A stretch of 64,000 nucleotides of DNA from Telopea speciosissima (lineage: Eukaryota > Streptophyta > Magnoliopsida > Proteales > Proteaceae): contig NC_057925.1 in NCBI RefSeq assembly GCF_018873765.1, forward strand, positions 6,149,568 through 6,213,567, in the 5' to 3' direction. The notes below the pieces were generated by a model, which worked only from the letters and a program-made list of their open reading frames with translations, did no database searches and had not been told where the DNA came from. Each line of letters opens with the position of its first letter. Within the stretch, counting starts at the first letter, position 1. Below are positions 4,503 through 51,268 of the stretch, in pieces. Position numbers and translations under genes: made by a program.

Positions 4503-4674
4503 TGCAATTGTTGCCATTGGAGTCTTGGACAGGACAGAGTCCAGGGTGGCTGGTGGTATTCTTAAATCTTTGAAAAAACCTGAAAGAAATCATCCAAAGT
4601 TAGATTCCTTCCTTCCTCCCCAAGTTGCACAAGAAACCTACCAATGAAGAAACTGTCGCCAAGTATTGGACCCA

Positions 4675-4740
4675 TTAGTGTTGACCTCACGAACTTGCTC
4701 GCCAAGCCAAAGCTTATCATGTTTATCCGGTCAAAGTGAA
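4675..4740 (+). promoter_or_regulatory. Conserved upstream block with W-box cores, copy 1
   Basis: This block (gaacttgctcgccaagcc, then GTTTATCCGGTCAAAG) recurs before several array copies. It holds TTGACC at 4681-4686 and GGTCAAA at 4729-4735, both W-box cores of the type bound by WRKY factors. Function is inferred from motif and conservation only. Confidence 0.5.
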
Positions 4741-4789
4741 ATGCCCATCTCTTTTGCATCAATATTTTAATATCATGGGTTGCTTTTTC

Positions 4790-4802
4790 TATATATATAT
4801 AG
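4790..4802 (+). promoter_or_regulatory. TATA box, copy 1
   Basis: An uninterrupted TATATATATATA tract lies about 175 bases before the start codon, at the position where the other copies have TATAAATA. Confidence 0.55.
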
Positions 4803-4975
4803 TATTAAGGTAGTATAGATTCCATCTCAGGTGATCTCACACTCATCCAACTCTCTCAACTCTCAACATTCAAATTTTCGGTTCTCATCAAACACTTTCA
4901 GAGATTCCAAAGTCTGAACTCCGAACCAGTCAAATCTCCTCTCTGTTTGTTTCTGAAAAGTAAGTAAATCAAAAA

Positions 4976-5182
4976 ATGGCCTTGATGTCAGCCCTATTCA
5001 GCTGTTTTGGGCTTCCTTCTTGTCGCATCTCCAATGACTTAATGGAAGCTGCAGATGATCACCAAAACCAGAAGAAGGGTCCATCTGATCAGAAAGAGAA
5101 ATCCTTCAAAGCAAAGCCAAAGTCTGGAGCTCCAATTCCAGTTTCTTACTTCCCACTCAACTCAAACCTCTCTCGCTTATAG
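4976..5182 (+). CDS. Small array protein, copy 1 (subfamily A, 68 aa)
   Basis: First of eight tandem copies of a small gene whose function I do not recognise. The 68-residue protein has a hydrophobic N-terminus (MALMSALFSCFG) with Cys10, a Ser/Asp segment, a Lys-rich middle (DQKEKSFKAKPKSG) and the C-terminus IPVSYFPLNSNLSRL shared by the whole family. The start is the ATG after an A-rich leader, as in copies 2 and 3. The hydrophobic stretch is short for a signal peptide; membrane tethering through the cysteine is possible but unproven. A second Cys (LPSC) is unique to this copy. Conservation of the reading frame and C-terminus among all copies is the main evidence that it is real. The stop codon TAG overlaps a GTGAGT donor-like word. 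Confidence 0.82.
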   Translation: MALMSALFSCFGLPSCRISNDLMEAADDHQNQKKGPSDQKEKSFKAKPKSGAPIPVSYFPLNSNLSRL

Positions 5183-5340
5183 TGAGTGTCTCTCTGTTAG
5201 TAATTGTTGATCATCAAACACAAACTGAAGAAATGAAAGACCCACAAAAGAAGGGATATCTCAGGCCACCTCTACAGGCTCCTGCGTCGATGATACGGGG
5301 GCAACTTGAGAGCCCTGAGTGTTAGCTCTGGTGGCACATT
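5182..5340 (+). other. 3' UTR of copy 1 with conserved GGCCACC element
   Basis: After the stop comes a stretch ending ATCTCAG at 5264, then a block (GGCCACCTCTACAGGCTCC, GATGAT) that recurs at the same place after copies 2-4 and in weaker form after copies 5 and 6. The interval 5182-5264 has GT...AG ends and may be a small intron. Confidence 0.5.
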
Positions 5341-8090: not shown

Positions 8091-8119
8091 TAATGTTATC
8101 AAATCATGTGGGGCTTGGA

Positions 8120-8228
8120 CCCAATATTGGTGACCACATTAACTTGCTCGCCAAGCCCCAATGCTTAACATGTTTACCCGGTCAAAGCGAAAGAAATATC
8201 ATGGGGTTGCTTGCTTCTTCTATAAAAT
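8120..8228 (+). promoter_or_regulatory. Conserved promoter block and TATA box, copy 2
   Basis: Carries aacttgctcgccaagcc, then CCCGGTCAAAG with a W-box core (GGTCAAA at 8180-8186), then TATAAAAT at 8221-8228, about 190 bases before the start codon. The spacing is the same as in copies 3 and 4. Confidence 0.55.
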
Positions 8229-8420
8229 GGGCACTTGGTAGTATAGATTCCATCTCAAGTGGTCTCACACTCATCCAAGTCTCTCAAGTCTCAACTCTCA
8301 AATTTTCGGTTTTCATCAAACACTTCAGAGATTCCAAAGTCTGAACTCCGAACCAGTAAAATCTCCTCCTTTGAAGTTATCGTTTCTGTTTGTTTCTGAA
8401 AAGTAAGTAAATAAAAAAAT

Positions 8421-8642
8421 ATGGCCTTGATGTCAGCCCTCTTCAGCTGTTTCGGGCTTCCTTCTTCCCGCATCTCCAATGACTTAATGGAAGCAGCTGC
8501 TGCAGATGATCACCAAAATCAGAAGAAGAGCCCGGTGCTGCCATCTGATCAGAAAGAGAAAGCGGTCAAAGCCAAACCAAAGTCTGGAGCTCCAATTCCA
8601 GTTTCTTACTTCCCACTCAACTCAAACCTCTCTCGCTTATAG
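8421..8642 (+). CDS. Small array protein, copy 2 (subfamily A, 73 aa)
   Basis: Second copy, 73 residues, the longest of the set because of extra Ala (EAAAADDH) and a PVLP insertion in the middle. The family layout is complete: MALMSALFSCFG with Cys10, acidic/polar segment, Lys-rich KEKAVKAKPKSG, and C-terminal APIPVSYFPLNSNLSRL. The start is the ATG after an A-rich leader. The leader differs from copy 1 mainly by small indels. Length changes in frame in the variable middle, with unchanged ends, suggest selection on both termini. Stop TAG overlaps a GTGAGT donor-like word. Function unknown. Confidence 0.83.
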   Translation: MALMSALFSCFGLPSSRISNDLMEAAAADDHQNQKKSPVLPSDQKEKAVKAKPKSGAPIPVSYFPLNSNLSRL

Positions 8643-9120
8643 TGAGTGTCTCTCTGTTATTGTTGATCATCAAACACAAACTGTAGAAATGAAAGACCCC
8701 AGCAGGCCAGGCGACGGAGTAGACTTCCACACGCAGAGTGTTTTCTGTGTTAATTTGCGATACATCAGCAATGGTGGTTCAATTACTTTCAGGAATACTG
8801 GCTTTCTTTAACTAAGAAAGAAAAAGAAGGGACATTTCAGGCCACCTCTACAGGATCCGGCGTTGATGGTTCAGGGGCGATTTGAGAGTCCTGCTTGAAG
8901 GCTCTGCTGGCACACTCTAGCACACTTTGACATGGTCTCTGATCGCATACCTATAAATAAATAAAGGCTCCCACCACTGCAGGGTCTGAGGAGGGTCATA
9001 ATGTAAACAACTTTACCCCCACTTCGAGAAGAGGCTGTTTTCAGACCGCGTATACATATAAATCATTTGTACAATCTTTTATTGGTGTATACTATCTATT
9101 GATTATAAATTAATAAACAG
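8642..9120 (+). other. 3' flank of copy 2
   Basis: GT...AG-bounded interval 8642-8840 (gtgagtgtc to acatttcag), then the conserved GGCCACCTCTACAGG block. Further on comes the tail region with atcatttgtacaat and attaataaacaggggact. No coding capacity. Confidence 0.5.
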
Positions 9121-13911: not shown

Positions 13912-14090
13912 GGATCCAGATCGTCTACGGCGGGCCTGCCTGTAGCGGTCAGAGTAGCGCACTAATAAGGCACGGCGTAATGATCGCCTTAACCCTGCCT
14001 CAGTGGGGGTAAGGCAGTCATTGCACCACACTCATTAGTGCACTGCTATGGCCACTACAAGCAGCAGGCCGTAGACGATCCCGATTGGGG
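13912..14090. repeat. Hairpin element upstream of copy 3
   Basis: Ends gatcgtctacggc and gccgtagacgatc are inverted. Arms share gcggtcagagtagcgcac against its inverse near 14035. The core is GATCGCCTTAACCCTGCC. It interrupts the upstream text that in copies 1 and 2 runs directly into gggcttggacccaat. Confidence 0.72.
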
Positions 14091-14100
14091 GCTTGGACCC

Positions 14101-14200
14101 AATATTGTTGACCACGTTAACTTGGTCGCCAAGCCAAAGCTTAACATGTTCACCCGGCCAAAGTGAAAGAAATATCATGTGTTGCTTGCTTCTATAAAAA
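14101..14200 (+). promoter_or_regulatory. Conserved promoter block and TATA box, copy 3
   Basis: TTGACC (14108-14113) and the gccaagccaaagcttaacatg block are kept. The second W-box position reads GGCCAAA instead of GGTCAAA, so that core is lost here. TATAAAAA lies at 14193-14200. Confidence 0.5.
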
Positions 14201-14388
14201 GGTGCACTTGGTAGAATAGATTCCATCTCAGGTGGTCTCACACTCATCCAACTCTCTCAAGTCTAAACTCTCAAATTTTCGGTCCTCATAAAGCATATTA
14301 GAGATTCAAAATTCCAAACTCCGAACCAGTAAAGTCTCCTTTGAAGGTATCGCTTCTGCTTGTTTCTGAAAAGTAAGTAAATAAAAAA

Positions 14389-14607
14389 ATGGCATTTTTG
14401 TCAGCCCTCTTCAGCTGTTTCGGACTTCCTTCTTCCAGCATCTCCAACGACTTAATGGAAGCTGCTGCAGATGAGCACAGAAACCAGAAGAAAGGCCCGG
14501 TGCTGCCATCTGATCAGAAAGAGAAAGCCGTCAAAGCAAAGCCAAAGTCTGGAGCTCCAATTCCAATTTCTTACTTCCCCCTCAACTCAAACCTCTCTCG
14601 CTTATAG
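14389..14607 (+). CDS. Small array protein, copy 3 (subfamily A, 72 aa)
   Basis: Third copy, 72 residues: MAFLSALFSCFG with Cys10, DLMEAAADEHRNQKKGPVLP, Lys-rich KEKAVKAKPKSG and C-terminus APIPISYFPLNSNLSRL. It has one Val-to-Ile change in the C-terminal motif and LM-to-FL near the start, all conservative. Start and A-rich leader are as in copy 2. The transcript unit is followed by the GTGAGT-overlapping stop and the conserved GGTCACCTCTACAGG block. It is closest to copy 2 by the shared PVLP insertion. Function unknown. Confidence 0.82.
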   Translation: MAFLSALFSCFGLPSSSISNDLMEAAADEHRNQKKGPVLPSDQKEKAVKAKPKSGAPIPISYFPLNSNLSRL

Positions 14608-15292
14608 TGAGTGTCTCTCTGTTATTGTTGATCATCAAACACAAACTGAAGAAATGAAAGACCCCTGCAGGCCAGGCTACGTACGTAGTAATTGTTGGCT
14701 CAATTACTTTCAAGAATACTTGCTTTCTTTAACTAAATTTGATGAAGAAAGAAAAAGATGGGATATCTCAGGTCACCTCTACAGGCTCCGGCGGCGTCGA
14801 TGATTCGGGTCGAGTCAGATACCCTTGCGTGTGGGCTCTGCTGGCATCCTTATTGCATATCTATAAAAAGTCAAGTCATTTGTAGAATCTATTATTGGTA
14901 TGTCTATGATATCTGTTGATTTAAACAGAGGACTACTACTCGCTTAATTATAAATCCTTGAAATGTGAACTTATTCCATCCAGCTTTTTATAGCTTCTCT
15001 TGACCACTTGTGTGGTGTCTCTTGACTCTCTTATTGATAGATTGGTTAATTTAGATAACCTAATGTATTAATCCTATGGCACAAATCTTCGACTTTAGGG
15101 CACACTTGACATCTATCTCTTCTTTCCAACAGATTCCCCTCCTTTTTTGTGAGAAACTACAATTTGGAATACCCAAATCCGAACTAAAATGATCGAAGTT
15201 ATATGACCATTTAAAATTCCAAGGGCAAAACTGTAATTTTAAGACTATTTTGGTGACATGGGGAACGTCACTACTTAAAATCTTGCTAGATA
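14607..15292. other. 3' flank of copy 3 and intergenic DNA
   Basis: A GT...AG-bounded interval 14607-14771 precedes the conserved 3' block. After about 14960 the sequence is unremarkable and non-coding. Confidence 0.45.
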
Positions 15293-15550
15293 TAGGGGTG
15301 TAAATGAACAGCCGAAATCCATTTCCGTATCTGTGCTCATATCCATTCAACACTATCCGAATCCATCCGTAAGCTAAACGGATGCGGATACGGATAGACT
15401 ATAGCTATCCGAAAAGCTATATTTACATATAAATGGATAAAATATCCGATCCGTATCTGTTTACCACTATCCGAATCCATCCGAAAACTAATCGTATGTG
15501 GACGCGGATATAGCACTATTCGAGCCGAATCCGATCCGTTTACATCCCTA
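15293..15550. mobile_element. hAT-type MITE with 8-bp TSD
   Basis: Starts TAGGGGTGTAAATGA and ends GTTTACATCCCTA. The interior is made of CGGATACGGATAG-like words. Flanked by GCTAGATA (15285-15292) and GCTAGATC (15551-15558), 7 of 8 identical. TAGGG ends with an 8-bp duplication fit hAT. A second copy lies at 43529-43798. Confidence 0.82.

Positions 15551-17896: not shown

Positions 17897-17952
<56 letters not shown>
17897..17952. repeat. (AT)n microsatellite in the copy 4 promoter
   Basis: About 28 uninterrupted AT units lie between the W-box block and the TATA box. Copies 2 and 3 have ordinary sequence here. The length may vary between individuals. Confidence 0.9.
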
Positions 17953-17954
<2 letters not shown>

Positions 17955-17975
17955 TGGTGGGTTGCTTCATCTTTC

Positions 17976-17983
17976 TATAAATA
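17976..17983 (+). promoter_or_regulatory. TATA box, copy 4
   Basis: TATAAATA about 146 bases before the start codon, aligned with the TATA box of copy 6. Confidence 0.6.
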
Positions 17984-18128
17984 GGGACTCGGTAGTATAA
18001 GATCCTCAGGTCTCACTCTCCAACTCTCAAGTCTCTCGACTCTCAAACTTCCCATCTCTACACCCCAAACCAATAAAGCCCTTGTGCAATCCTTCTTTGT
18101 TTTCTGTGTGTTTGTGAGAAAATAAAAA

Positions 18129-18344
18129 ATGGTTTTGATGTCAGCCCTCTTCAGCTGTTTCGGGCTTTCTTCTTCCCGTGTCTCCAACGATTTAATGGAA
18201 GCTGAAGTAGATGATCACCAAAACCAAAAGAAAGTCCCGGTGCCGTCTGATCAGAAAGAGAAATCCGTCAAAGCAAAGCCAAAGTCTAGAGCTCCAATTC
18301 CAGTTTCTTACTTCCCCATCAACTCAAACCTCTCTCGCTTATAG
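18129..18344 (+). CDS. Small array protein, copy 4 (subfamily A, 71 aa)
   Basis: Fourth copy, 71 residues: MVLMSALFSCFG with Cys10, SSSRVSNDLMEAEVDDHQNQKK, Lys-rich KEKSVKAKPKSR and C-terminus APIPVSYFPINSNLSRL. The leader (gtgtttgtgagaaaataaaaa before the ATG) is the type shared with copy 6 rather than copies 1-3. All landmarks are intact, so I consider it functional. A Mutator-like element (18658) lies about 310 bases past the stop, and the hAT element lies about 2.4 kb downstream. Function unknown. Confidence 0.82.
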   Translation: MVLMSALFSCFGLSSSRVSNDLMEAEVDDHQNQKKVPVPSDQKEKSVKAKPKSRAPIPVSYFPINSNLSRL

Positions 18345-18648
18345 TGAGTGTCTCTGTTATTGTTGATCATCAAACACAAACTGAAGAAATGATAGACCCC
18401 TGCCAGGGTAGCAGCAGGCAGGCTTCAATGAAGAAATAAAAAAACGAAAGGGAAATCTCAGGCCACCTATATATGGCTCCGGCGTGGGTGATTCAGGTCG
18501 ACTCAGACCGTGCGAGCTGGCTCTGCTTGCACACATACTTAATTTGACAGTATAAACCTGTAACAACGCGATCTGGTCTCATATGTATATCAATCCATCA
18601 TTAGTTTGCATAATTTATTATTATTGTTGTATATTAGGTGTTTGATAA
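18344..18648 (+). other. 3' flank of copy 4
   Basis: GT...AG-bounded interval 18344-18461 (gtgagtgtc to aaatctcag), then the conserved GGCCACC block, gacagtataaacctgtaa, and the gtttgataaaatta word into which the next element inserted. Confidence 0.5.
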
Positions 18649-20527: not shown

Positions 20528-20709
20528 CCAGAGCCAGACAGGGACGACGCAAGTAGAAACCGTTGGAATGACCATTCTTTAATAAGCAAAACAGGGGTTG
20601 AGGGGAATTGAGACTTCGTGTCCAACACGCAAAGGTGCTCACGGAAAAGAGCGGAACACACTCTTCTTCAAAGTGTTGCCATTGACATGGACAGGAAGGA
20701 GAAGATGGT
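20528..20709. other. Upstream unit text before copy 5
   Basis: Contains gtgtccaacacgcaaaggtgct and agcggaacacac, repeated at 32790-32840. It is the part of unit 5 upstream of the hAT insertion. Confidence 0.5.
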
Positions 20710-21228
20710 TTTAAATAGGGGTGTCAATAATACCCGGCTGGCCCGAACCCGCCCTGAGCCCGGCCCGAACCCGACCCTGATCTGCTAGCCCGAAGGGCGG
20801 GTCAGGGTTGAGATTTTGGCTGACCCTGGCAGGGTCGGGTCGGGTCGGGCTCAACATGGCGGGCCTAGCCCGGCCCGGCCCTGACCCGACCCTGAATTCT
20901 TTATAAGCCTTTATATGGCTGAAAATACCAAAATACCCCTAAGAGTGATAAATAACCCTAATCCCATATGGCCATATTCCCTTTTTGTTTTCACTTTTCA
21001 CATTTTCAGTCTTCCCATTCTTCTTCTTCATCCACGAGAAGCTGAGAAAGCCGCCGCTCGACGACTAGCAGCCTTCTTCTTCCTCGGTTCCTCCTTCCCA
21101 AATTCGCATCAAGGAGTCAAGGACTCAAGGTATGTTCTAATATTCAGCACTTCATTCTTATTTGGGTCTTTCCCCATCCTCGCAACAGTGCTGCTAGTAC
21201 TCAAAATCAATTTATTGTCTTCAATGAA

Positions 21229-21480
21229 TCATGATTGAGAAAGAAAGTAGACCTGAAGATGTAGATTGTAAAACACTACTGCCCCTGATGAAGCAAAGGC
21301 TGAAACATTAGACACTTCAAGGCCCTCTTCTTCCAAATTAAGCAAAACCTCTGACAGTGAACTTCTCATGTTCTGACTCCCACATATCTGAATCATTACT
21401 TCTCTTTCTTCAATTTGACTCACCGAAACACTTGGTAATGATCTTCGAACAATCCCATAATTTACTGTTTTAGCAATTAA
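21229..21480 (-). pseudogene. Captured 3' exon of a group Ib bHLH gene
   Basis: The minus-strand translation reads RRSLPSVSVSQIEEREVMIQIC, then LSEVLLNLEEEGLEVSNVS and VVFYNLHLQV. This is the C-terminal part typical of plant bHLH subgroup Ib proteins (ORG2/bHLH38 type, iron-deficiency regulators). No bHLH domain is attached; its N-terminal piece lies 2.2 kb away at 23583-23736 in the same orientation, with the lectin kinase fragment between them. It is an orphan exon inside the hAT element and cannot make a working factor. Family identification is from remembered conserved wording, not a search. Confidence 0.7.
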
Positions 21481-21817
21481 TTTAGATTGTGTTGTACTTT
21501 GAATCTTTTACTACTTAAATAATCAATTCATGGGTGCATATTAGACTGTGCCATATATAGATCTGTTGCTTTAAGAATGAAAGTTGTTTAATTTCATTTT
21601 AATGTCTATGTTAAGGTTTCAGGAACAGGAAGTGATGAGGGAGTAAAAGCTAGTAGTAGTAGTAGTGGTATTAGATTGCTGTGGGACAGAGCAATGAGAG
21701 TAGTAGCTAGCTAGTGATCATGGGATCCAAAGGATCACTTTTGGATTAAAAATATTAATGATCTCCTGTTCTGTTTGTTATAAAGGATGTTTCATGATTT
21801 TTAACTACTTAATCAGT

Positions 21818-22379
21818 TCATACTACAGAGAGGGGCGAACGGGATTCCAATTTGCTTAATCCTGCAAAGTGTGCAAGGTGCCATATAAGATTATTAATGT
21901 CATGAATGCCAATGTGTGAGATTATTTTGAGAATGGAAGAAAAATGAAAGGGGGGGGGGGGGGGTGAAGCAGGTAATAACAGGATGTTATATGTCAGATG
22001 GGGAGAGAGTCGAATAATCGATCTCTCCCTGGACTTAGGCCAGCGCTCTACTACAGTGGCAGCCACCACCACGCCAAGAGGCTCTTAGCATAATGGATTA
22101 CTGTAGGACTGGATCAAATTGGAGCTATATATAAAGACTGTTCCACCTTCTTTTTATGGACTGAGGATCTTTCCTTAGCAACAAATCACTGTCAGCCTGC
22201 CTTAGTAGACCATTCAACCGATTTATCTTAAGTCCTAAGCTAACTAACACAATTGAAAATTTTAAAACAGTATATTGATATAGAAAGAAGGCTGATTTCT
22301 CTTTCATAAAATTATTAAAAGGAAAGGAATAAGTGAATGCCCCTACCTTAGAAGAACACAGAAAAATAACTGGTATACA
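21818..22379. other. Unassigned intron DNA between captured fragments
   Basis: No gene motif seen. A G-run lies at 21951-21964. Confidence 0.4.
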
Positions 22380-23530
22380 ATGTTCCTCAAATTTGCGGTT
22401 TTGTTCCTACTCCTTAGGAGATCTGTAGCATCACAACAAGAAGATGTTGAGTTCACCTACAATGGATTTGGAGGAGTTGACTTGAGCTTGGACAGCTTAG
22501 CTCAAATTACAAACAATGGCCTCCTTACGTTGGTAAACACCACTATGCAACAGAAGGGTCATGCCTTCTACCCTCATCCGCTTCATTTCATGAATTCTTC
22601 CACAGGTAATGTTTTCTCCTTCTCCACTGCCTTTGTATTTGCCATGTATTCTGAGTTTACCACAGTAGGTGGTCCTGCAATGGCGTTTGTAATTGCACCT
22701 TCAACAAACTTCTCAAGTGCTTTACCAAGCATTTATGTAGGCCTCTTCAATAAGACCAACATCGGCAATTCATCCAACCATCTCATAGCAATCGAGATGG
22801 ATTGCATCCAAAATTTGGATTTCAATGACATCGATGGCAACCATGTCACAGCTGCTCCGGCTTCTTTTTTTAGTGATCAAGAGAACCGATATGTGAACCT
22901 GACCCTCTTCAGTAGACATGCCTTGCAACTTTGGGTGGAATATTCGGGTGAACTAAGGCAACTTTAGCTCCAATTGAAGTTCCTAAACCAAAGATCCCCC
23001 TCTTGTCCTTGAACATTGATCTTTCCCCAATCATAGTGGATCCTATGTTTGTGGTTTTCTCCTCAATAACTGCTGTCATAAAAGCACCTCATTATGTGTT
23101 GGGGTGGAGCTTCAAGATGAATGGACAAGCAAAAGCTCTGTCTCTAACTCAACTTCCTAAGCTTCCTCGAACAGGGCCTAAAACACAATCTAAAATTTTT
23201 AACATTGGATTTCCTGTGATCGGTGCTAGTTTATTGTAAATGTCGATCTTCATCATCCAATTAATTGTTGGAAGGAAGAAAAAATTCGCAGAAGTTCATG
23301 AAGATTGGGAATTTGAATATGGACCTCAGAGGTTTAAATATAAAGATCTCTACATTGCAACCAGAGGATTTAATGAGAAGGAGCTTCTTGGTATAGGTGG
23401 CTTTGGTAAGGTCTACAGAGGTATATTACCCAATTCAAATGAAAAAGTTGCAGTGAAGAGAGTATAACATGATTCAAGACAACGGGTGAGGGAATTCATT
23501 GCTGAGATCGTCAGCATCGGTAAATTGCAC
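22380..23530 (+). pseudogene. Captured L-type lectin receptor kinase fragment
   Basis: Reads as the 5' half of an L-type lectin receptor kinase: signal peptide (FLKFAVLFLLL), legume-lectin domain (FTYNGFGG, ...GHAFYPHPLHF, AFVFAMY, VEYSGE), LAPIEVPKPKIPLL, then HYVLGWSFKMNGQA, a spoiled transmembrane segment, and the start of the kinase ([51 protein letters not shown]). It stops there, before the catalytic loop. Breaks: a frameshift/stop at about 22967, TAA at 23237 in the membrane region, TAA at 23465 after VAVKRV. Such receptors sit in the plasma membrane and act in defence signalling. This piece lies in the intron of the hAT element and is not functional. Confidence 0.9.
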
Positions 23531-23582
23531 CCAAACCCATATCTTGAGACTTTGAGACTCAAAAAGAGAAATGATGGGAAAA

Positions 23583-23736
23583 TCGAGGCAATAAATTGAA
23601 CATAGAGAGTGTTTAATTTCTTGCGGCGATCACGTTCGCTGGCATTATGATTCAGCTTCTTGATTAAGGATGGATCAATATTGGTAATGGCACTAGGCTT
23701 AGGTACCCTTTGTAAATGGGAAGGATGCAAGAACAT
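23583..23736 (-). pseudogene. Captured bHLH domain exon (group Ib type)
   Basis: The minus strand encodes LIKKLNHNASERDRRKKLNTLY, the basic region and first helix of a subgroup Ib bHLH factor, with the DNA-contact residues H-N-A-S-E-R-x-R-R in place. It then runs into unrelated sequence at the border with the lectin kinase fragment, so loop and second helix are lost. It pairs with the C-terminal exon at 21229-21480. Confidence 0.8.
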
Positions 23737-24302
23737 TTGAAGTATTTATTTGGATCCATTGCATAGCAGCTCACGAAATGGAAAGAGCTTTGAATGCATA
23801 AAAAATAAATGAAAACTCATCAACTTTCTTTTTGTGTCCCTTCTCTCTTCTAGCTAACTGCCTCTTCTTGTAATGTTATGAGCTACCTTTCTATGTATAG
23901 TTGAAGATTGAAGGTAAACCTCTCTTTGGAGGTTGCAAACATTGCCACTCCTATGAATAGATATACTCTTAGATGATAGATATAGAGTCAAAGTATCAGA
24001 CTTTGGCACCACTTTCTAGTGTTTAGTAGTAAATTTACACTAGTAAATTAATTTAACTTAGGGAAAATTACATCCCCTCCCCTGTACTTTGTCTTAATTA
24101 CACGTTCTTCCCTTTGATGTATCAATCTGAGTGGGAGCAAGTCTCCTTCTTCTTCATTAATGTATCAATCTGAGTGGGAGCTCATCACTCACACCATGTA
24201 TCAATCATATAGAGCAAGTCTCCTTCTTCTTCACTATTTTCTTCAACTTATTGTTTCAAAGATCTTACACATGTCTGAATTTTTGAATTTGTACAGATCT
24301 CA

Positions 24303-26560
24303 ATGAAGGAAAACTCAAATCCAAGGCAGCCAAACTCAAGTTCAAATCATCCAAATTCAAATCCAGTTGAATCAAGCTCTAAGGATCCTGTGACAAGCTC
24401 TACAAAGGCACAACCAAACTCTAATGCGTCTGAGGTATCTTCTAATCCCCTCACTATAGGGTCATCTAGTGTTTGGAATCACTTCACTAAAGTTATACCT
24501 CCTAGTGGTTCAAAAGCTACTAAGTGTACATGCAAGTATTGCCACAAGGAATTTGGTTGTGCAAGTGAACATGGTACTAGTTCACTAAAACGACATTTGG
24601 ATAGATGTCTTCTGTGTCCAAGTAGTGAAAAAAATAAGAAGCAAAAACTTTTGGATTTTAAAGTTGACACGAGTGATGGTAAGAGTACAATCACTAGTAT
24701 CTTAGCTTGGAAATTTGATTATGAATTGTGTAGAAAGGCGCTTGCTCGCATGATTATTATGGATGAATTACCATTTATATTTGTAGAGCGGGACGGGTTT
24801 AGAGATTTTTGTAAGGCTTTACAGCCTAGGTTTAATACTTTGACCCGTAATACTGTGGCACAAGATTGCTTGCAATTGTATCTGGGGGAGAAAAAGAAGT
24901 TGCAAGATTTGTTTAAGAGAACTGCTCAACGGGTGTCCCTCACCACAGATATGTGGACTTCTATCCAAAATCTTGGTTATTTGTGCCTCACAGCACATTA
25001 CATTGACCAAAATTGGAAATTGCAAAAGAAAATCATTAACTTTTGCGTAGTCCCATCACCACATACTGGTGAAGCAATTAGTAATGCCCTTGAGCTGTGT
25101 TTGATTGATTGGGGGTTGGATAAACTGTGTAGTATTACTGTGGACAATGCAAGCAGTAATGATGTTGCAATTCGAAATTTAAAGAGAAGATTTAATAAGA
25201 AAAATGGGTTATTGTTGGGTGGTGAGTTTTTTCATATGAGATGTGCTGCCCATATTTTGAATTTGATTGTCAAGAAAGGTCTTGAGGATTGTGGAGATGT
25301 TGTAAGTAAAGTTCGTTCTGTAGTGAAGTATGTAAGGAGTTCACCATCAAGGTCACAACAGTTTAGATTGTGTTATAAGCAAGAAAAGATTGAGTGTAAG
25401 AAAGCTTTGAGTTTAGATGTTTCTACTCGTTGGAACTCTACATATCTTATGTTGCAAACTGCTTTGGAGTTTCAAAAAGCTTTTGAATGTGTAGAAGATA
25501 GAGACCCAAACTTTACTATGGAGTGCAAGGATGGGGTCCCAACTACTCAAGATTGGGAGAGAGCTAAAGTTTTATGCAAGATGTTGGAGTTTTTTTACAA
25601 TGCAACTACAAGATTGTCTGGGTCTCTTTTTACTACTTCAAATCTTTACTTCAAAGAGATTAGTGTGATTGAATCACAGTTGAACAAGTGGTCAAGAAGT
25701 GAAGATGACATGATTCGGGATATGTCATTGGCAATGAAAGAAAAATTTGACAAATATTGGGGTGGTAGTGGCACTGACAAAATGAATATTATGTTGATTG
25801 TTGCTCGTGTTCTTGATCCACGATTTAAGTTGAGATATGTGAAATATTGCTATTCAAAATTATATTCTCAACATGAGGTGGAAGAGAAAATTGAGAGGAT
25901 TAAAAATGTCATGGATCGTCTCTTGAGACATTACCAAATGCAGGGGTCGACAAGTAGTACAGTGAGAGTTGATTCATCTACAACCTCTTTTGATGGTTCA
26001 TCAATAGATGATGATGACAGTGAATTTTCAGAAAGGGGTTTTCATAATGCATTAGAAGAGGAGGAGCGTTTCCATGTGACATCTGACTTAGACAAATATT
26101 TGTTGGAAGGTATTGAGAAGGAGGATGAACTCAATTCTTTTGACATCTTGAATTGGTGGAAGGTCAATAGTACACGATTTGTGGTTCTAAATAAGATGGC
26201 AAGGGATGTTTTGGCGATTCCTGTCTCAAGTGTTGCTTCAGAGTGTGCTTTTAGCACCGGTGGTAGGATTTTAGACCAGTTCCGTAGCTCTTTGACACCT
26301 ACGATGGTAGAGGCATTGGTATGTACACAAGATTGGCTACGACAGACACCGGTTTCAATTGATGTTGAAGAGAACTTAATTGACCTTGAGAAGATCGAAT
26401 CAGGTAACAACCTTTTAAATTCCCTTATATCATTTAATTACAATAATAATAATAACATTATGAATGATGATTAAGTTTATTGATTTGTTCATTTGTTAAA
26501 TGTGTTTTTTTTTCAGCTACTAACAATGATTGTGGTGATGCAACTATAACTTTGACTTGA
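24303..26560 (+). CDS. hAT transposase (BED zinc finger, RICESLEEPER/Ac type), 714 aa
   Basis: Two coding exons, 24303-26403 and 26517-26560. The splice gt aacaac ... tttcag replaces the read-through tail after IES with a short end, ATNNDCGDATITLT. Ser/Asn-rich N-terminus; BED-type finger with C77, C80, H98, C102; RNase H-like core with D216 (TTDMWTS) and D281 (VDNASSND); hAT dimerisation region (LNWWKVNSTRF) and E647 in SVASECAFS, as expected for the third acidic residue. No stop or frameshift. It cuts and pastes elements with matching ends. Presence inside perfect terminal repeats shows it is the element's own transposase, not a domesticated gene. A further small intron in the 3' UTR is likely (gtaagg near 26595 to ttttccag at 26700). 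Confidence 0.93.
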
Positions 26561-26719
26561 TGGATGATAATGCATACTTATTTGGCGTGAACTGGTAAGG
26601 ACTTGTATCCAAACAATAGTTCTTATTAGCTAATATTTTCTTTGACATCTGTTTGTATTAATAGAGTTTTTCCCTCATTTTGGGCATTTTTTTTTCCAGG
26701 AATCCCAGATTCAAGCATA

Positions 26720-27000
26720 TCATGGAGATGGATCATGGATGCTGCTGTGATTGATGGTTGATTGTGGCAGTATTTTTATTCATGGATGATTGTAGCAGTA
26801 GTATTTTTATGGATGTTTGTGGCAGTATTTATATGGATATTTGTGGTAGATTATTATGGATGATTGTGGTAGTATTTTTATGATGTTTGTGGAAGTATTT
26901 TATTTATGGATGTTTGTGAGAGTATTTTTATTTATGGATGTTTATGGTAATATTTTTATTTATGGATTTTTATAGATGTTTGTGAATTATTTTTATTTAA
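26720..27000 (+). repeat. Degenerate tandem repeat in the hAT 3' region
   Basis: The words tggatg(a/t)ttgtggcagtatttttat recur about eight times with small changes. It is part of the non-coding 3' side of the transposon. Confidence 0.7.
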
Positions 27001-27099
27001 ATTTACAAGTCCCTCTCTCCCTCTCTCTCCTTCCCATCTTATTCTTATTATTTACAGAATTTTTCAGGTTTTTTTTAGATATATTCTTTGATATATATC

Positions 27100-27340
27100 A
27101 ATCAGGGTCAAGACAGGGTTAAAACAGGGTCAAGACAGGGTCAATCAGGGCCGACCCGACCCTGCCCGACCCTATCAGGGTCAGGTCGGGTCGGACTAGA
27201 GAAAAACCCTGGTAGGGTCGGGTCAGGGTTAAGGGTTTCTTGGCCCTGCCAGGGTTGGGTCAGGGTCAGGGTCAGGGTCAGGGTCAGGGTTTAGACCTCT
27301 AGGGTCAGGGTCAGGGTTTTGGTAGGCCCGGCCCAACCCG
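27100..27340. repeat. hAT subterminal repeat cluster
   Basis: Many copies of CAGGGTC and GTCGGGTC-type heptamers, in both orientations, adjoin the right end. A matching cluster lies at 20735-20900. Such clusters are where hAT transposases bind. Confidence 0.75.
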
Positions 27341-27357
27341 ACCCATTGACACCCCTA

Positions 27358-27902
27358 GTTTTAAATTGCCGAAAAAAATATAAAAAGAAATCGAAAGTAA
27401 CTCTCCCCTGACTGAGAATCTGAGATTCATTTCTCCTAGACGATCTGGACAAAGATGGGGAATACTGAGAACGGAAATCCCCAGGGGTGATTTTTTCGTT
27501 TTTTTCAAAAAGAAAATCCCCTAAAGAAACCCGAAATGTACGGACAACGAAACTGTCGCGAAAAACCTCCACGACACGACACACCAGAAGAAGACCCATA
27601 TTCTTCGTCCCTTAAGTTGTCAAACCATCTGGGCCCATTGATTGACAACAACACCTCTTGAACTTGCTCGGCAAGCCAAACATTGCATTTCTACCCGCTC
27701 ATAATTCAAATTCAAACGTTGCTTTACAGATATGTATATCTGGAGCACCGTAGTATGGAGCCTCAGGTCTCACTCTCCAACTACACTCAAGTCTCTCGAC
27801 TCTCAAATTTCCCTTCAAAGTTATCTCTAAACTTCAAACTAGGGAAGCCCTTGTGGAATTCTCCTTGTTTTCGCGTGTTTTGGAGAGCCAATAAATCAAA
27901 AA
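27358..27902 (+). other. Promoter side of copy 5, decayed
   Basis: Continues the unit after the hAT insertion: cgatctggacaaaga, aactgtcgcg, caaaccatctgggcccattgattgac, gaacttgctcggcaagccaaac. The W-box position reads CCGCTCATAA and no TATAAATA is present (gatatgtatatctgg instead). The promoter has lost its main landmarks. Confidence 0.5.
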
Positions 27903-28093
27903 ATGGCATTGATGTCAGCACTCTTCAGCTTTTTCGGGCTTCAATTTTCCAGTGTCTCCAACGATTTAATGGATGCAGAAACGAAGGATTGCCGTCTGAT
28001 CAGAAACAGAAACCTGTAGAAGCCAAGCCAAAATCTGGAGCTCCAATTCCAGTTTCTTACTTCCCAGTCAACTCATACCTCTCTCGCTTATAG
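27903..28093 (+). pseudogene. Small array gene, copy 5, frameshifted
   Basis: From the ATG the family N-terminus is readable (MALMSALFSFFGL) with Cys10 replaced by Phe. The segment that should encode DDHQNQKK is partly deleted and the frame changes near 27985, giving a stop at the TAG near 28017. The proper C-terminus (APIPVSYFPVNSYLSRL) is present only in another frame, up to 28093. With loss of the TATA box, the W-box and the cysteine, this copy looks dead. Its C-terminal NSYLSRL matches copy 6, its nearest relative. The long open frame that spans 27683-28093 is an artefact of the shift. Confidence 0.85.
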
Positions 28094-28316
28094 TGTCTGT
28101 CTCTGTTATCGCAATGTGTTTCTGTGTTGATATACAATTCAACAATGGCGAGGTTCAATGAAGAAAGAAAAAAATCTCAGGCCAACTCTGGTCCGGCGTG
28201 GATGATTCTGGCCGACTCGAGACCTGTTCGTGCTGGCTCGGCTAGCACACTTCGAAAGTATAAAACTGTAACTACTACGTGGGTGACTCCTCATATTGTA
28301 CATCACTAGCTTTTGA
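28094..28316 (+). other. 3' flank of copy 5
   Basis: Keeps the AAATCTCAG/GCC junction and the conserved block (ggtccggcgtggatgattc), but the donor-like word after the stop is GTGTCT rather than GTGAGT. Confidence 0.45.
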
Positions 28317-33059: not shown

Positions 33060-33119
33060 TCGGCAATTCAAGTAGAGGATCCAAATTCTATCATGTTGGG
33101 GTTGCTTCTTCTATAAATA
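33060..33119 (+). promoter_or_regulatory. Promoter of copy 6: TATA box kept, W-box replaced
   Basis: gaacttgctcggcaa is followed not by the conserved GGTCAAAG stretch but by gtagaggatccaaatt, the end of a hairpin element as at 4486 and 41400. TATAAATA is at 33112-33119. The change looks like an element insertion followed by deletion. Confidence 0.5.
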
Positions 33120-33292
33120 GGGGCACGGTAGTATAGATTCTATCTCAGGTCTCACTCTCCAACTCTCTAGTCTCAGACTCTCAAATTTCCCTTTTCTACT
33201 CTTCTGATCTTCAAAGTTATCTCTACATTCTAAACCAGAAAATCCCGTGGTGGAATTCTTCTTCTTTTCGTGTGTTTGTGAGAAAATCAAAG

Positions 33293-33505
33293 ATGGCTTT
33301 GATGTCAGCCCTCTTCGGCTGTTTCGGGCTTCCTTCTTCCCGTGTCTCTAACGATTTAATGGAAACTGCAGATGATCACCAAAACCAAAAGAAGGGTCCG
33401 TTGCCGTCTGATCAAAAAGAGAAACCGATAGAAGCCAAGCCAAAGTCTAGAGCTCCAATTCCAGTTTCTTACTTCCCAGTCAATTCATACCTCTCTCGCT
33501 TATAG
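33293..33505 (+). CDS. Small array protein, copy 6 (subfamily A, 70 aa)
   Basis: Sixth copy, intact, 70 residues: MALMSALFGCFG (Gly before Cys10), SSRVSNDLMETADDHQNQKK, DQKEKPIEAKPKSR and C-terminus APIPVSYFPVNSYLSRL. The ATG at 33293 is chosen because it aligns with all other copies; an in-frame GTG seven codons upstream is not a likely start. NSYLSRL is shared with dead copy 5 only. Stop TAG is followed by TGTCT, so the donor-like GTGAGT of copies 1-4 is weakened to GTGTCT. Function unknown. Confidence 0.82.
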   Translation: MALMSALFGCFGLPSSRVSNDLMETADDHQNQKKGPLPSDQKEKPIEAKPKSRAPIPVSYFPVNSYLSRL

Positions 33506-34090
33506 TGTCTCTCTGTTATTGTGAGTGGATGTCGTTCATCATCAATCAAAACTGAAGAAATGAAAGAACCCACGCCAGGATAGCAGGCAGGCTTCCGCAA
33601 AGTGTTTTTGTGTTCATTTGCGACTAAGCAATGGCGGTTCAATGAAGGGAAATTTCAGGCAACTTCTCTGGCTCCGGCACTGATGGTTGTGGTGGTTCAC
33701 TTTGACAGTATAAACCTGTAAATCATTTGTACAATTTATCATTGTTTGTATACTAGTTGTTTGATAAAATTACTAAACAGAGAACTCAATTAATTAGATT
33801 TAAAAATTTGAATTCCATCCGGCTTTGTTTGATTGCTCTCGACCAGTACTGATCATGTTCGAAAAGAAATCAGAGGGGAGAATGAAGCTAATTAATAGAT
33901 CAAAGTTTGTGATAGATCCAAAGTTGAATTTGGGATTGAAGATACAATGTTGTAGTAAAAAAGCTGATACAAAATTATCTTAAAACTTAAGATTGGTGGG
34001 AAGTGCTTGCATCTTAGCACCATCAGCTCACCACCCGAACAAATAGGGACAGGAAATTTGGAGAAGGGTGAGTGTTGCCGCTAGAATCTG
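33506..34090. other. 3' flank of copy 6, then intergenic
   Basis: Conserved features up to about 33800 (gaaatttcag/gcaac, gacagtataaacctgtaa, tttgataaaattac). The last word is the uninterrupted form of the site where elements inserted after copies 4 and 5. Beyond, nothing recognised. Confidence 0.5.
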
Positions 34091-34091
34091 A

Positions 34092-36118
34092 TCTGCCATG
34101 TTGGATCCCAAGACTACTCGTTGCTACTTTATCAGCTACTCAGATCATTCGAAGGGATATAAATTTTATAATCCCTGCGGAGGCGCTAGGATTGTGGAGT
34201 CACAGACAGTGAAGTTTCTGGAATTTGATATAGCTGAAAAGAATGACTGTTCTTAGACCGTTCAAGATAGTCTCCTGGTTGGTACATCGGTACCTATTCG
34301 TCTACCTATTCAGACGGATGTGGGGCATACTGTGCCATTGGTTACACCTGCTGGAGTTCAGGAGCCTGATATTGATACTGTCCCCGACATTCATGTAGTA
34401 CCTGATGAGATTCCTCTTATTCAGGATGCGGTTGAGGATCCTATCATTGATGCAGTTCCAGCTGAGATTCCTCAGATTCAGGTTGAGGCAGTAGTGGCAC
34501 CATTACGGAGATCCACCAGGGAGAGAATGTCAGCTATATCACCTATCTATGAGGTCTATCTAGGAGAACATGACTATGACATTGGTTGTGTGGTCGATCC
34601 AATTACTTATTCAGGCGCTGTTTCTAGTCCTCAGTCAGCTTTGTGGATAGATGCGATGAGAGATGAAATGCAATCGATGAAACAAAATGATGTTTGGGAG
34701 CTTGTTGATTTACCTAAAGATTGTAAGCCCATTGGTTGCAAATGGGTGTATAAAACCAAAAGAGATTCCAAAGGAAAAGTTGAGAGGTTTAAAGCCAGAC
34801 TGGTAGCCAAGGGATTCACTCAGAGAAAGGGAATAGACTACAATGGGATTTTTTCTCCAGTCTCCTCGAAGGATTCTTTCAGGGTAATCATGGCATTGGT
34901 AGCTCATTTTGTTATGGAGCTGCATCAGATGGATGTTAAAATCGCCTTTCTCAATGGCAATCTTGATGAGGAAGTCTATTTGGTTCAGCCTGAGGGTTTT
35001 GCAGTGGTGATTCAAATCATCTTGTGTATAGACTCAAGAAGTCTATCTACGGTCTCAAACAAGCTTCTAGGCAGTGGTATCTGAAATTTGAAAGTGTTGT
35101 GACTTCGTTTGGTTTTATGAAAAACAAAGTGGATCAGTGTATATATCACAAGGTCAGTGGGAGCAAATTCTGTTTTCTCATTCTGTATGTGGATGACATC
35201 CTGCTTGCAAGCAGTGACCTAGGGATGTTGCATAATACAAAGCAACTTTTATGTAGGGAATTTGACATGAAGGATCTTGGTGAGGCCTCTTTTGTTCTTG
35301 GGATTGAGATCCATAGGAATCGTTCTCGCCGTTTATTAAGTCTTTCTCAGAGGGCTTATGTTGATCGTGTTCTGGAGAGGTTCAGTATGCTGGATTGCAA
35401 ACCTGGGAATGTTCCTGTTCTCAAGGGTGACAAACTGAGTTCGACACAGTGCCCGAAAAATAAAGCTGAGAGGGATGAAATGAAGAAGGTGCCTTATGCT
35501 AGCGCACTTGGTAATATCATGTATGCTCAGGTCTGTACCAGACCGGATATTACTTTTGGGACAGGACTTCTTGGCAGGTATCAGTCAGATCCTGGTCTTA
35601 GCCACTAGGTTGCTACCAAGAAAGTATTGAGGTACTTAAAGGGGACAAGAGATTATATGCTGACTTACAGACACGTTCCTGAACTCAAGCTAGTGGGGTA
35701 TACGGACTCTGACTTTGCTGGCTGTGAGGATGACAGGAAATCCACATCATGTTATGTTTTCTTGATGACAGGAGGGACAGTATCATGGAAGAGTAAAAAG
35801 CAGACATTGGTGACCACTTCGACTATGCAGACAGAGTTTGTAGCATGCTATGGGGCTACTACTCAGGTTATTTGGCTCAGAAATCTCATAAATGAGTTGA
35901 CTATTATAAATTTTGTGGATAGACCCATCCAGATATACTGTGATAACAGCTCTGCTGTGTTGGTTATAAACAACAATAAAGGACTTAGAGGGTCTAAACA
36001 CATGGAGGTCAAGTATTTGACCATAAAGAAGAGAGTAAAAGAAGGTGACATTGCAGTCGAACATATTGGTATAGCTGATATAGTTGCAGATCCCCTAACC
36101 AAAGGTCTACGCCCTTGA
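34092..36118 (+). pseudogene. Ty1/copia pol, 5'-truncated and broken
   Basis: Starts within the region after integrase (YKFYNP-like, then LRRSTRERMSAISPIYEVYL), followed by reverse transcriptase (CKWVYKTKRDSKG, ARLVAKGFTQ, DVKIAFLNGNLDEEVYL, KSIYGLKQASRQWYLKF, LYVDDILLA) and RNase H (GYTDSDFAGCEDDRKSTSCY, SWKSKKQ). Breaks seen: stop near 34254, frameshift near 35007, TGG-to-TAG type stop at 35607. The protease and integrase parts are missing. It belongs to the same rearranged element as the LTRs and gag to its right. It cannot make a working polyprotein. Confidence 0.93.
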
Positions 36119-42639: not shown

Positions 42640-42823
42640 TAGGTACCATATGTCCATATGTGCTGTGCTGTTCAAGAAAAACTTGCTCTGCAAGACAAAG
42701 CCAAGCTTGCTCTGCAAGCCAAAGCCATACAAGCTTACCATTCAATGTCTTTTTTTTTTTTTTTTTTTTTAAATTTATAGAACCATTCAAAGTCATTTGG
42801 GTCTCTTCTTCTATTTATAAATA
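42640..42823 (+). promoter_or_regulatory. Promoter of copy 7 (subfamily B)
   Basis: Contains two runs of acttgctctgcaag(a/c)caaagcc, related to the promoter block of subfamily A, then accattcaaagtc and TATAAATA at 42816-42823. A T-run of about 22 bases lies in between. The A-type W-box is not present in recognisable form. Confidence 0.5.
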
Positions 42824-42964
42824 AAGGATATGAGCACCATTATATTTTCATTCATCAAAGTCTTGTGAGTTCTCAAAACACTAGTAACTCCAGTCCTGAG
42901 GTGTCCAAGGTGTGTATTAGTGAGTGAAGCCCTCTTAATTCCAGTTCTCTTTGTCTGTGACAGA

Positions 42965-43174
42965 ATGTTTTCTACCATCTTCAGCTGCTTTGGCCTTTCT
43001 TACTTTCGCAGCTCCAACGAAATGGATTCTGGTGATCATCAAAACGAAAAGAAAGTCCAAACCAAAAACCCAATTGATCAGAAAGAGAAACCCACCAAAG
43101 CCAAGCCAAAAAAGTCTGGACCACCCATTCCAGTATCTTACTTCCCCATCGGCTCAAATCTCTCTCGCCTCTAG
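42965..43174 (+). CDS. Small array protein, copy 7 (subfamily B, 69 aa)
   Basis: Subfamily B member, 69 residues: MFSTIFSCFG (the initial four residues of A are replaced), then YFRSSNEMDSGDHQNEKKVQ, the Lys-rich DQKEKPTKAKPKKSG, and C-terminus PPIPVSYFPIGSNLSRL. Compared with A it has an extra Lys and PP for AP but the same frame layout. The ATG is preceded by tctgtgacaga. A GTG 15 codons upstream would add MSEALLIPVLFVCDR, which copy 8 also keeps open, but a GTG start is unlikely. The stop region lacks the donor-like GTGAGT. Function unknown. Confidence 0.8.
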   Translation: MFSTIFSCFGLSYFRSSNEMDSGDHQNEKKVQTKNPIDQKEKPTKAKPKKSGPPIPVSYFPIGSNLSRL

Positions 43175-43520
43175 TCCTGTTTCTACTTCTTAAACCCAAG
43201 AGACTTATCTTCACCTGCAGAAGGTGTTTGATTTTGTGTGTCAAATCCTTATCAAATTTGCAGTCCCTGTTTTGGAATCCTGGAGTGGAGTCATTTGGGT
43301 GAGTGACCAAGTTGGGTTCGAAGTAAAACCGTTCAAGTCAGAGAAAAACAAAAAAAAGTGATTGATTCAGAAGGCCTACTCTGCTTCTCAATGCTGCCGG
43401 TGATTGCTTTAATCAGGTCCGTCAAGTGGGGGAATTCCGTTGCTTTAATCAGCTCCTAATTCATGAAGCGGAATACGTTAATGTGTGATCAGTATAAGCA
43501 CTCCCACTTTTAGATTAAGG
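43175..43520. other. 3' flank of copy 7
   Basis: Non-coding. Shares ggagtggagtcatttgggtg and cagaaggcctactctgcttctcaatgct with the flank of copy 8. The GGCCACC block of subfamily A is missing. Confidence 0.45.
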
Positions 43521-43528
43521 ATTAAGAG

Positions 43529-43798
43529 TAGGATTGTAAACGGATCGGATTCGGCTCGGATAGTGCTATATCCGCATCCGCATCCGATTAGCTATCGGAT
43601 GGATTCAGATAGTGCTAAATGGATACGGACATGGATACGGATCGGATATTTTATCTGTTCACATGTAAATATAGTTTGTCGGATAGCTATAGCCTATTCG
43701 TATCCGCATCTGTTTAGCTTTCGAACGGATTCGGATAGTGCTAAACGGATATAGACACGAGTACGGAAACGGATTTCGGCTATTCATTTACACCCCTA
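43529..43798. mobile_element. hAT-type MITE with perfect 8-bp TSD
   Basis: Starts TAGGATTGTAAACGG and ends TTCATTTACACCCCTA. The interior is cggataC/Gg words like the copy at 15293-15550, in the opposite orientation. Flanked by ATTAAGAG at 43521-43528 and 43799-43806. Confidence 0.88.
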
Positions 43799-48480: not shown

Positions 48481-48617
48481 AAGGAAAACTTGCTCTCCAA
48501 GTTAAAGTCATACAAGTTTACCATTCAAAGTCTATTTTTTTTCATATATATACATATAATTAATAGAACCATTCAAAGTCAAAGACCAATTTGGGTCTCT
48601 TCTTCTGTTTATAAATA
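48480..48617 (+). promoter_or_regulatory. Promoter of copy 8 (subfamily B)
   Basis: aaaacttgctctccaag, accattcaaagtc and TATAAATA at 48610-48617, in the same order as copy 7. Confidence 0.5.
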
Positions 48618-48768
48618 AAGGATTTGAGCACCATTATATTTTCATTCATCAAAGTCTTGTGAGTTCTCAAAACACAACTAACTCCAGTCCAGACTCCAGA
48701 GGAGTCCAAGGTGTGTATTAGTGAGTGAAGCCCTCTTATTAATTCCAATTCTCTTTGTCTGTGACAGA

Positions 48769-48978
48769 ATGTTTTCTACCATCTTCAGCTGCTTTGGCCT
48801 TTCTTCCTTTCGCATCTCCAGCGAAATAGAAGCTGGTGATCACCAAAACCAAAAGAAAGCCCAAACCAAAATCCCAACTGATCAGAAAGAGAAACCCACC
48901 AAAGCCAAGCCTAAAAAGTCTGGACCACCAATTCCAGTATCTTACTTTCCCATCAGCTCAAATCTATCTCGCCTCTAG
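48769..48978 (+). CDS. Small array protein, copy 8 (subfamily B, 69 aa)
   Basis: Last copy, 69 residues, close to copy 7: MFSTIFSCFG, SSFRISSEIEAGDHQNQKKAQ, DQKEKPTKAKPKKSG and PPIPVSYFPISSNLSRL. Differences from copy 7 are single substitutions with no indel, and the C-terminal motif is kept, which suggests that both are under constraint. The leader from about 48650 is nearly identical to that of copy 7 (caaagtcttgtgagttctcaaaac). Start at the ATG by alignment with copy 7. Function unknown. Confidence 0.82.
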   Translation: MFSTIFSCFGLSSFRISSEIEAGDHQNQKKAQTKIPTDQKEKPTKAKPKKSGPPIPVSYFPISSNLSRL

Positions 48979-50994: not shown

Positions 50995-51268
50995 GAAGAT
51001 GTGATCGGAGTCGACTCGTGTCTTGTCTTTAACCAAAGAGGGTGAGAGTAGGGGTGTCAACTGATCAGGCTCGGTCAGGTTCGGTCAAGCCTCATGGTTT
51101 ACACTGTGACCCCCCATTTAAGTATTCGAGCCGGGACTGGTTAGACTTCGGACTATAATTGGGTAATATAATCGGGCCTTAAAGGGTGTAGAACCGGGCT
51201 ACGGTCAACATAAATATAAACATGCTTTAAAAGGTACAACCATTTTTTTTTTTTGAAAGGTACAACCT

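Follow-up and report, generated by a model that had tools for sequence, protein, structure and literature searches.

Serial capture of host DNA, probably by template-switching repair, in the putative leader intron of a transposase-bearing hAT family from Telopea speciosissima

How does a cut-and-paste transposon that encodes its own transposase come to carry pieces of several host genes? This question is raised by a hAT element in the genome of Telopea speciosissima (waratah), located in a 64,000-nt stretch of DNA, C10:6149568-6213567, which we will refer to as the window. A direct check of the window sequence places the element on the + strand at 20716-27357 (6642 bp), so that the start at 20718 given in an initial annotation was 2 bp off. 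The initial annotation described the element as a hAT transposon carrying pieces of two host genes. This interpretation is supported here, but a third captured piece (block X, 23695-23958) had been missed. Based on a search of the 822,943,500-base assembly and a comparison of copies, we consider it probable that host DNA has been captured serially, by break repair with template switching, into the putative leader intron of this transposase-encoding hAT family.

A genome search with the 5' end of the element returned at least 42 rows at at least 40 places, with the best 40 of 1023 candidates scored. The window copy and the best 20 of the 39 other places (L009-L028) have been compared, 21 copies in all. 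Target-site duplications (TSDs) are readable in 17 of these, perfect in 16 and matching at 7/8 positions in L010. L021, L025, and L026 are cut at the left by the stretch analysed, and the right terminal inverted repeat (TIR) of L027 is damaged. Beyond the window, paired ends and their flanking 8-bp duplications can be read in 16 copies (15 perfect and one with 7/8), and the element is therefore not a chance arrangement. In the window copy the perfect 13-bp ends and the perfect duplication reported initially hold, since the ends are exact reverse complements and the two flanking 8-mers match at 8/8 bp; the + strand of the window contains four occurrences of this 8-mer.

The copies have the first ~440–490 bp in common, as well as the part from ~24,193 to the 3' end, and the part that differs lies inside the putative leader intron. 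The 3' halves of the copies are 97.0–99.5% identical to that of the window copy, while the 5' ends are less alike (mostly 89–98%, with one 61-bp piece at 84%). Compared with the column majority, the 3' half of the window copy carries 13 substitutions in ~3.1 kb; 12 are C>T or G>A changes, and there are no transversions among the 13. The variable part falls into cargo types. Type A, a fragment labelled LINE-like for endonuclease- and reverse-transcriptase-like motifs that we take to be of this kind, is present in five of the 21 copies, and types A2 and B in two each. Type C holds a whole bHLH gene (L011, L012, and L021), type D a bHLH gene interrupted by block X (L009 and L027), and type E bHLH remnants together with X and an L-type lectin receptor kinase (LecRK) block (the window copy and L013). 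Type F, with a 91-bp LecRK piece and 1.15 kb of other DNA, is found in five copies. A Pfam search of eight open reading frames (ORFs) of the other cargo blocks gave nothing above the gathering score. Copies with and without the captured genes, which the initial annotation had proposed to look for, thus both occur, with both terminal repeats.

The order of the captures can be read from the joints between the blocks, which have been searched in the 21 copies with at most 2 mismatches. The right bHLH/LINE joint is present in L011, L012, L021, L009, L027, and L013, the left joint of X in L009, L027, L013, and the window copy, and both LecRK joints in L013 and the window copy only; none of the joints was found in the other 14 copies. 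The absence of the right bHLH/LINE joint from the window copy is due to a missing segment of ~1.3 kb, to which the remainder of X also belongs. Since the joints are common to nested sets of copies, the capture order is bHLH, then X, then LecRK, and the window copy represents the last cargo layer in a trimmed form. Each cargo combination is now present on two chromosomes, six chromosomes in all, and the TSDs are perfect 8-bp duplications wherever they are readable.

The donor of the bHLH gene has been located on C7. A genome-wide search with all 18 candidates scored gave 19 rows, seven of which lie in elements of this hAT family (the window copy, L009, L011, L012, L013, L021, and L027, on six chromosomes). 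The other 12 comprise the native locus, four paralogues (L037-L040), a pair of further matches at 70%, and five rows whose similarity is confined to the neighbouring C9-type block. The donor L033 (C7:17892851, ~17.89 Mb), which has L037 and a third, 70% match as neighbours, is collinear with L011, L012, and L021 over ~2040 columns (96.5, 96.2, and 94.7% identity). The collinearity extends from ~480 bp upstream of the ATG through both exons and the intron into the 3' flank, and the captured gene measures ~2.03 kb. The initial annotation had placed two exons of a bHLH gene on the - strand of the 5' intron. Both pieces are present there, but the gene was captured whole and damaged later. In the window copy, the first bHLH piece gives a weak Pfam match (HLH 7e-4, below the cut-off) and the second none, while the best protein match is an ORG2-like bHLH of Telopea (97%).

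In L011 (~C3:18826317-18832490), the bHLH reading frame is complete. The database protein P0241 ('transcription factor ORG2-like') corresponds to the two exons inside L011 with 100% identity over 243 aa, and its recorded contig has the same length as C3, the chromosome of L011. That database gene is therefore transposon cargo. The P0241 gene model ends in the tail VYFLSQS, which the aligned Macadamia and Protea relatives lack. In the basic region of L033, Leu replaces an Arg (RDRLKK) that is invariant in eight aligned sequences, and the captured copy keeps RDRRKK. The paralogues L039 (C2:22214629) and L040 (C11:15154128) are 97–98% identical to the captured exon over 87 bp only, and show no protein match beyond ~aa 197 of P0241. 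The captured gene differs at 12 of 732 bases (nonsynonymous divergence, dN, 0.014; synonymous divergence, dS, 0.025), too few differences for the selection test to say anything.

The second capture, block X, is a 0.7-kb piece that interrupts the first bHLH exon in the type D and E copies. Outside the elements it is found at full length only at C9:18661159-18661870, with 94% identity (all 15 candidates scored); twelve other matches are short and weaker. The native C9 site reads GCGTGGAT/CAAATC and the captured copy GCGTGGAT/TAGGGGTGTCAATAATACCCGGCTG/TCCATG. In L009 and L013, the initial 25 bp of the hAT 5' end come after GCGTGGAT and precede the bHLH sequence, the two sharing GGCTG. The internal 25-bp hAT end of L027 is the same, with one mismatch. 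We infer that a hAT insertion was present in the template of X at the time of copying.

The third capture is a 2.1-kb block that is 99.1% identical to L041 (C9:21.185-21.187 Mb) over 2136 columns with 3 gap columns, the flanks of L041 being unrelated on both sides. The LecRK pieces of the window copy match Lectin_legB in Pfam (1e-42 and 8e-11) and Pkinase below the cut-off (5e-4), and the best protein match is a LecRK IV.1-like protein of Telopea (87%). The reading frame of the fragment is shifted once and interrupted by two stop codons, and ~10 aa are deleted. We read the captured LecRK DNA as already dead at capture, because the C9 donor carries the same frameshift, both stops, and the same deletion, along with one additional frameshift of its own. 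The LecRK fragment that the initial annotation saw on the + strand is thus confirmed, and its origin is the dead C9 block and not directly the LecRK cluster on C5, where the next-best match is found (C5:69513347, 91%, within a run of LecRK matches at C5:69.42-69.60 Mb; best 40 of 84 candidates scored). The donor genes that were to be sought elsewhere in the genome have accordingly been found, on C7 for the bHLH gene and on C9 for LecRK. The LecRK block replaced ~297 bp of the bHLH gene, and L013 lacks ~974 bp of the block.

The captured DNA lies beside a transposase gene that remains open. After one predicted splice joining the two coding exons of Table 1, the gene encodes 714 aa. The unbroken transposase reported initially, with D216 (in LTTDMWTS), D281 (in ITVDNASSN), and E647 (in SSVASECAFST), is thus borne out. 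In 48 sequences D216, W218, and D281 are invariant, and E647 is conserved in at least 90%. Pfam identifies zf-BED (5e-8), hAT-like_RNase-H (6e-28), and Dimer_Tnp_hAT (4e-30) in the unspliced reading. The sequence matches Hermes with E 2e-12, chiefly in the C-terminal part. When the predicted structure (pLDDT 78.5, pTM 0.73) was compared with the PDB using Foldseek, the 11 best matches were all Hermes, the first with E 1.8e-17. The best-scoring database transposases are from Liquidambar and Tasmannia (~52% identity). The element therefore has the features of the hAT superfamily, namely short TIRs and an 8-bp TSD, a BED finger, an RNase-H-like DDE core, and a C-terminal dimerisation domain. A domesticated gene of the DAYSLEEPER/RICESLEEPER type, single-copy and lacking TIRs and TSDs, is ruled out by the many copies with both.

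The window copy has an open transposase gene between intact ends, the property of an autonomous element, and judging from its sequence it would be autonomous now or would have been until recently. It is the only one of the 21 copies with an open transposase frame. In the 20 other copies there are 206 frameshift indels, and 27 four-base bins are struck in at least three copies, compared with a random expectation of 3.0 on average and 8 at most (500 draws). In the transposase half of L009-L028, the recurrent single-base indels are often located at homopolymers or CAG/CTG, and we take them to be uncorrected long-read errors in assembly repeats. The broken transposases of the other copies are probably in part assembly errors, and because of these recurrent errors the window copy being the sole open copy is not used as proof.

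The region upstream of the transposase frame (Table 1) has been read as a leader exon and leader intron of the transposase gene. The splice donor fits the consensus in 21 of 21 copies and the acceptor in 20 of 21, which is consistent with this assignment. The subterminal regions are rich in GGGTC/GACCC, with 8 occurrences within 260 bp of the 5' end and 18 within 300 bp of the 3' end, compared with 9 in the intervening 6.1 kb.

Table 1. Features of the hAT element and its flanks, with positions counted from the first letter of the window; a slash marks a splice site
Feature	Position	Strand	Remark
Target-site duplication, left	20708..20715	none	GTTTTAAA
5' terminal inverted repeat, 13 bp	20716..20728	+	TAGGGGTGTCAAT
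5' leader exon, putative	20716..21129	+	conserved splice donor GGACTCAAG/GTATGTT
5' subterminal repeats, GGGTC/GACCC-rich	20736..20895	+	
5' leader intron with captured DNA, putative	21130..24296	+	acceptor TTTGTACAG/
Captured bHLH (ORG2-like), second exon part and 3' flank	21198..21458	-	97.7% to C7 donor L033
Captured 2.1-kb C9 block (L041) with LecRK pseudogene	21457..23591	+	99.1%
LecRK pseudogene fragment (N-terminus, lectin domain, kinase start)	22380..23533	+	
Junction patch CAATAAATTGA	23589..23600	+	once more in element (reverse strand, bHLH flank); absent from C9 stretch
Captured bHLH, part of first exon with basic region	23601..23694	-	98.9% to L033
First 265 bp of captured block X	23695..23958	+	from C9:18661159-18661870
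Transposase main coding exon (zf-BED, RNase-H-like, hAT dimerisation)	24303..26403	+	
Transposase last coding exon	26517..26560	+	predicted by splice consensus
3' subterminal repeats, GGGTC/GACCC	27100..27340	+	
3' terminal inverted repeat, 13 bp	27345..27357	-	exact reverse complement of TAGGGGTGTCAAT
Target-site duplication, right	27358..27365	none	GTTTTAAA

Based on these observations, we propose that the long 5' leader intron of the transposase gene acts as a cargo bay for captured DNA. Three blocks were added in turn on one lineage: the complete bHLH gene from C7, the 0.7-kb C9 block together with 25 bp of a hAT 5' end, and the 2.1-kb C9 block with LecRK. Each capture would begin when the element is broken, most likely as a copy is excised, and the break would be repaired by copying with template switches. 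A switch to other DNA would leave overlaps of 1–5 bp or short fillers. The intron would tolerate the cargo, as its contents would be spliced out while the transposase frame and the ends stay intact.

The joints fit this proposal. They show overlaps of 1–5 bp (CACT, GGCTG, AT, and one single base) and the short fillers CTCAGCCA and CAATAAATTGA, the latter of which is perhaps templated. Part of the earlier cargo was lost at each capture. Template-switch repair is favoured because of these overlaps and fillers, this repeated loss of cargo, and the location of the donors on two chromosomes.

Several observations weigh against the proposed sequence of captures. The comparison covered 20 of the 39 other places, and only type C shows the left joint of the bHLH capture. 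Overlaps of 1–5 bp together with one 11-bp patch amount to modest support. The donors were not necessarily distant from the element when each capture occurred. Two of the three are on C9, 2.5 Mb apart. In addition, the tree of the 3' halves does not follow the cargo types. We think that assembly errors are behind much of this mismatch, and trees on these sequences are weak; exchange between copies could also be its cause. Recombination between the cargo half and the transposase half, to which the 3' tree points, has been set aside in view of the recurrent frameshift indels above the random level. Lastly, the X donor stretch L042 (C9:18660700-18661950) has hAT-end-like sites on the + strand at positions 370 and 895, with 3 and 2 mismatches, respectively, compared with 0.28 expected from shuffles. 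These sites, together with the hAT terminus at the end of X, would also suit a composite-element event.

Such an event is the main rival to template-switch repair. Two neighbouring hAT copies would flank host DNA, the outer ends would be used together, and the inner ends would decay, so that the host DNA comes to lie in the interior; Gisby and Catoni (2022, PMC8903248) present this model for Pack-CACTA and other Pack-TYPE elements, hAT included. Block X suits it best, as it ends exactly at the 25-bp hAT 5' end in L009 and L013 (and, with one mismatch, in L027) and its donor has the two end-like sites described above. On the other hand, the three blocks from C7, C9 at 18.66 Mb, and C9 at 21.19 Mb lie within one another, every capture also removed part of the previous cargo, and an internal hAT end has been found only beside X and on one side. 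bHLH and LecRK donors flanked by the same ends, which the initial annotation had named as a sign of an unrelated insertion, were not observed. The 3.25 kb examined around L033 have no hAT end within 2 mismatches and a single 3-mismatch site (shuffled mean 1.0), and the L041 stretch has neither a hAT end within 2 mismatches nor a hAT-end-like site. We consider composite mobilisation unlikely.

Nested insertion appears more improbable still. Here another transposon already containing the LecRK piece, and a further one containing X, would have jumped into the captured bHLH gene. The LecRK block does sit as a unit in C9, and 21457-21530 also matches places on C2, C3, and a second place on C9. However, the edges of the C9 block have no TIR-like ends (best 7/14; random median 8) and no convincing TSD, the only candidate being AAGGAA, offset by 3 and 1. 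Moreover, the ~297 bp of bHLH sequence are missing at the insertion place and the joints are without duplication.

Chimeric assembly joins of unrelated repeats deserve mention given the many recurrent single-base errors in these copies, but they are very improbable, since copies at different genomic positions have the same joints (2–6 copies per joint) and five of the seven bHLH-bearing copies have readable, different, and perfect TSDs. Capture at the RNA level, recorded for another hAT family (histone H3 in a fungus; PMC6710886), has practically no chance here, as it is refuted for bHLH by the intron, with the promoter side and 3' flank also present, and the C9 block extends beyond the LecRK reading frame on both sides.

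Template-switch repair into a leader intron can be compared with known systems, as far as excerpts of the following papers describe them. The initial annotation regarded gene capture as less well known for full-length hAT elements, but a transposase-bearing case has been on record since 2008. In Hatvine-6 of grapevine (Benjak et al. 2008, PMC2528002), the transposase and the 13-bp TIRs are common to the copies and the remainder varies and often matches introns and exons of genes. Compared by description, the Telopea element likewise combines a conserved transposase and conserved ends with a variable genic interior. The Hatvine-6 TSD is 9 bp and that of the Telopea element 8 bp. The Hatvine-6 passages contain no description of capture order, joints, or the mobilisation of a whole gene, while in Telopea three captures and their donors are resolved within one leader intron. 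In maize, Ds2 and Ds-l4 carry parts of genes that were copied at the DNA level, together with introns, from other chromosomes (Du et al. 2011, PMC3260210). They resemble the Telopea element as hAT transposons with DNA-copied fragments, but are non-autonomous Ds and Ds-like elements.

Pack-hATs also have hAT ends around host coding DNA and a variable interior. Pack-TYPE elements are non-autonomous by definition, and a transposase match leads to classification as autonomous (Gisby and Catoni 2022, PMC8903248). The Telopea element behaves in the manner of a Pack-hAT, but its open 714-aa transposase places it outside that definition. The hAT with histone H3 in Pseudocercospora fijiensis (Dhillon et al. 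2019, PMC6710886) is similar in that a captured gene accompanies the transposase domain in full-length copies that have been amplified. Unlike the Telopea family, it has one gene, captured from a transcript or retrocopy, and carries repeat-induced point (RIP) mutations. Animal Pack-TIRs show microhomology at breakpoints, as seen here, and have been explained by gap-filling and template-switching models, but the animal families are biased to nearby donors (Tan et al. 2021, PMC8277862). Thus, hATs with a transposase and variable genic interiors, Ds fragments, Pack-hATs, and a fungal hAT with histone H3 are already known. As far as searches of the open-access literature go, the resolved layers, donors, and joints are new.

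Other features of the window have also been noted. A 1.2-kb non-autonomous hAT-like element at 51049-52228 (TAGGGGTGTCAAC ... ATTGATACCCCTA) is flanked by GGTGAGAG and TGTGAGAG and has an internal tandem repeat at 51266-51566. An inverted pair of ~270-bp repeats (15293-15550 and 43529-43798, 83%), with TAGGGGTGTAAAT at one end, is perhaps a miniature inverted-repeat transposable element of a related hAT. Eight related segments form an array (4666-5243, 8110-8912, 14088-14846, 17950-18426, 27575-28109, 33089-33595, 42703-43193, and 48486-48997). The ORFs at 27662 and 33137 in this array have the common ending PIPVSYFPVNSYLSRL, and the hAT element lies just upstream of one of the segments. At 34257-36118 there are ORFs in more than one frame that we take to encode a Copia-like polyprotein, from motifs of the reverse transcriptase and RNase H type. 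RNA-family and tRNA scans of the window found none. As a candidate empty site inside the window, repeats at ~17.5, 32.5, and 41 kb align with parts of the element's flanks and are element-free, but the target itself is not conserved in them.

How cut-and-paste transposons acquire genes is still an open question. A tentative and rather doubtful extension of these results is that an autonomous hAT serves as a serial gene-capture vehicle, its leader intron making the captures harmless, and that the bHLH gene of L011 is a working, newly dispersed host gene. If this is true, one active lineage would pile up layers, with copying that sometimes passes through hAT ends, as in block X, and a complete host regulatory gene could be moved together with its own promoter. 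With its before and after states, donors, joints, recent lineage, and apparently intact transposase, this hAT family would make the repair and composite models testable.

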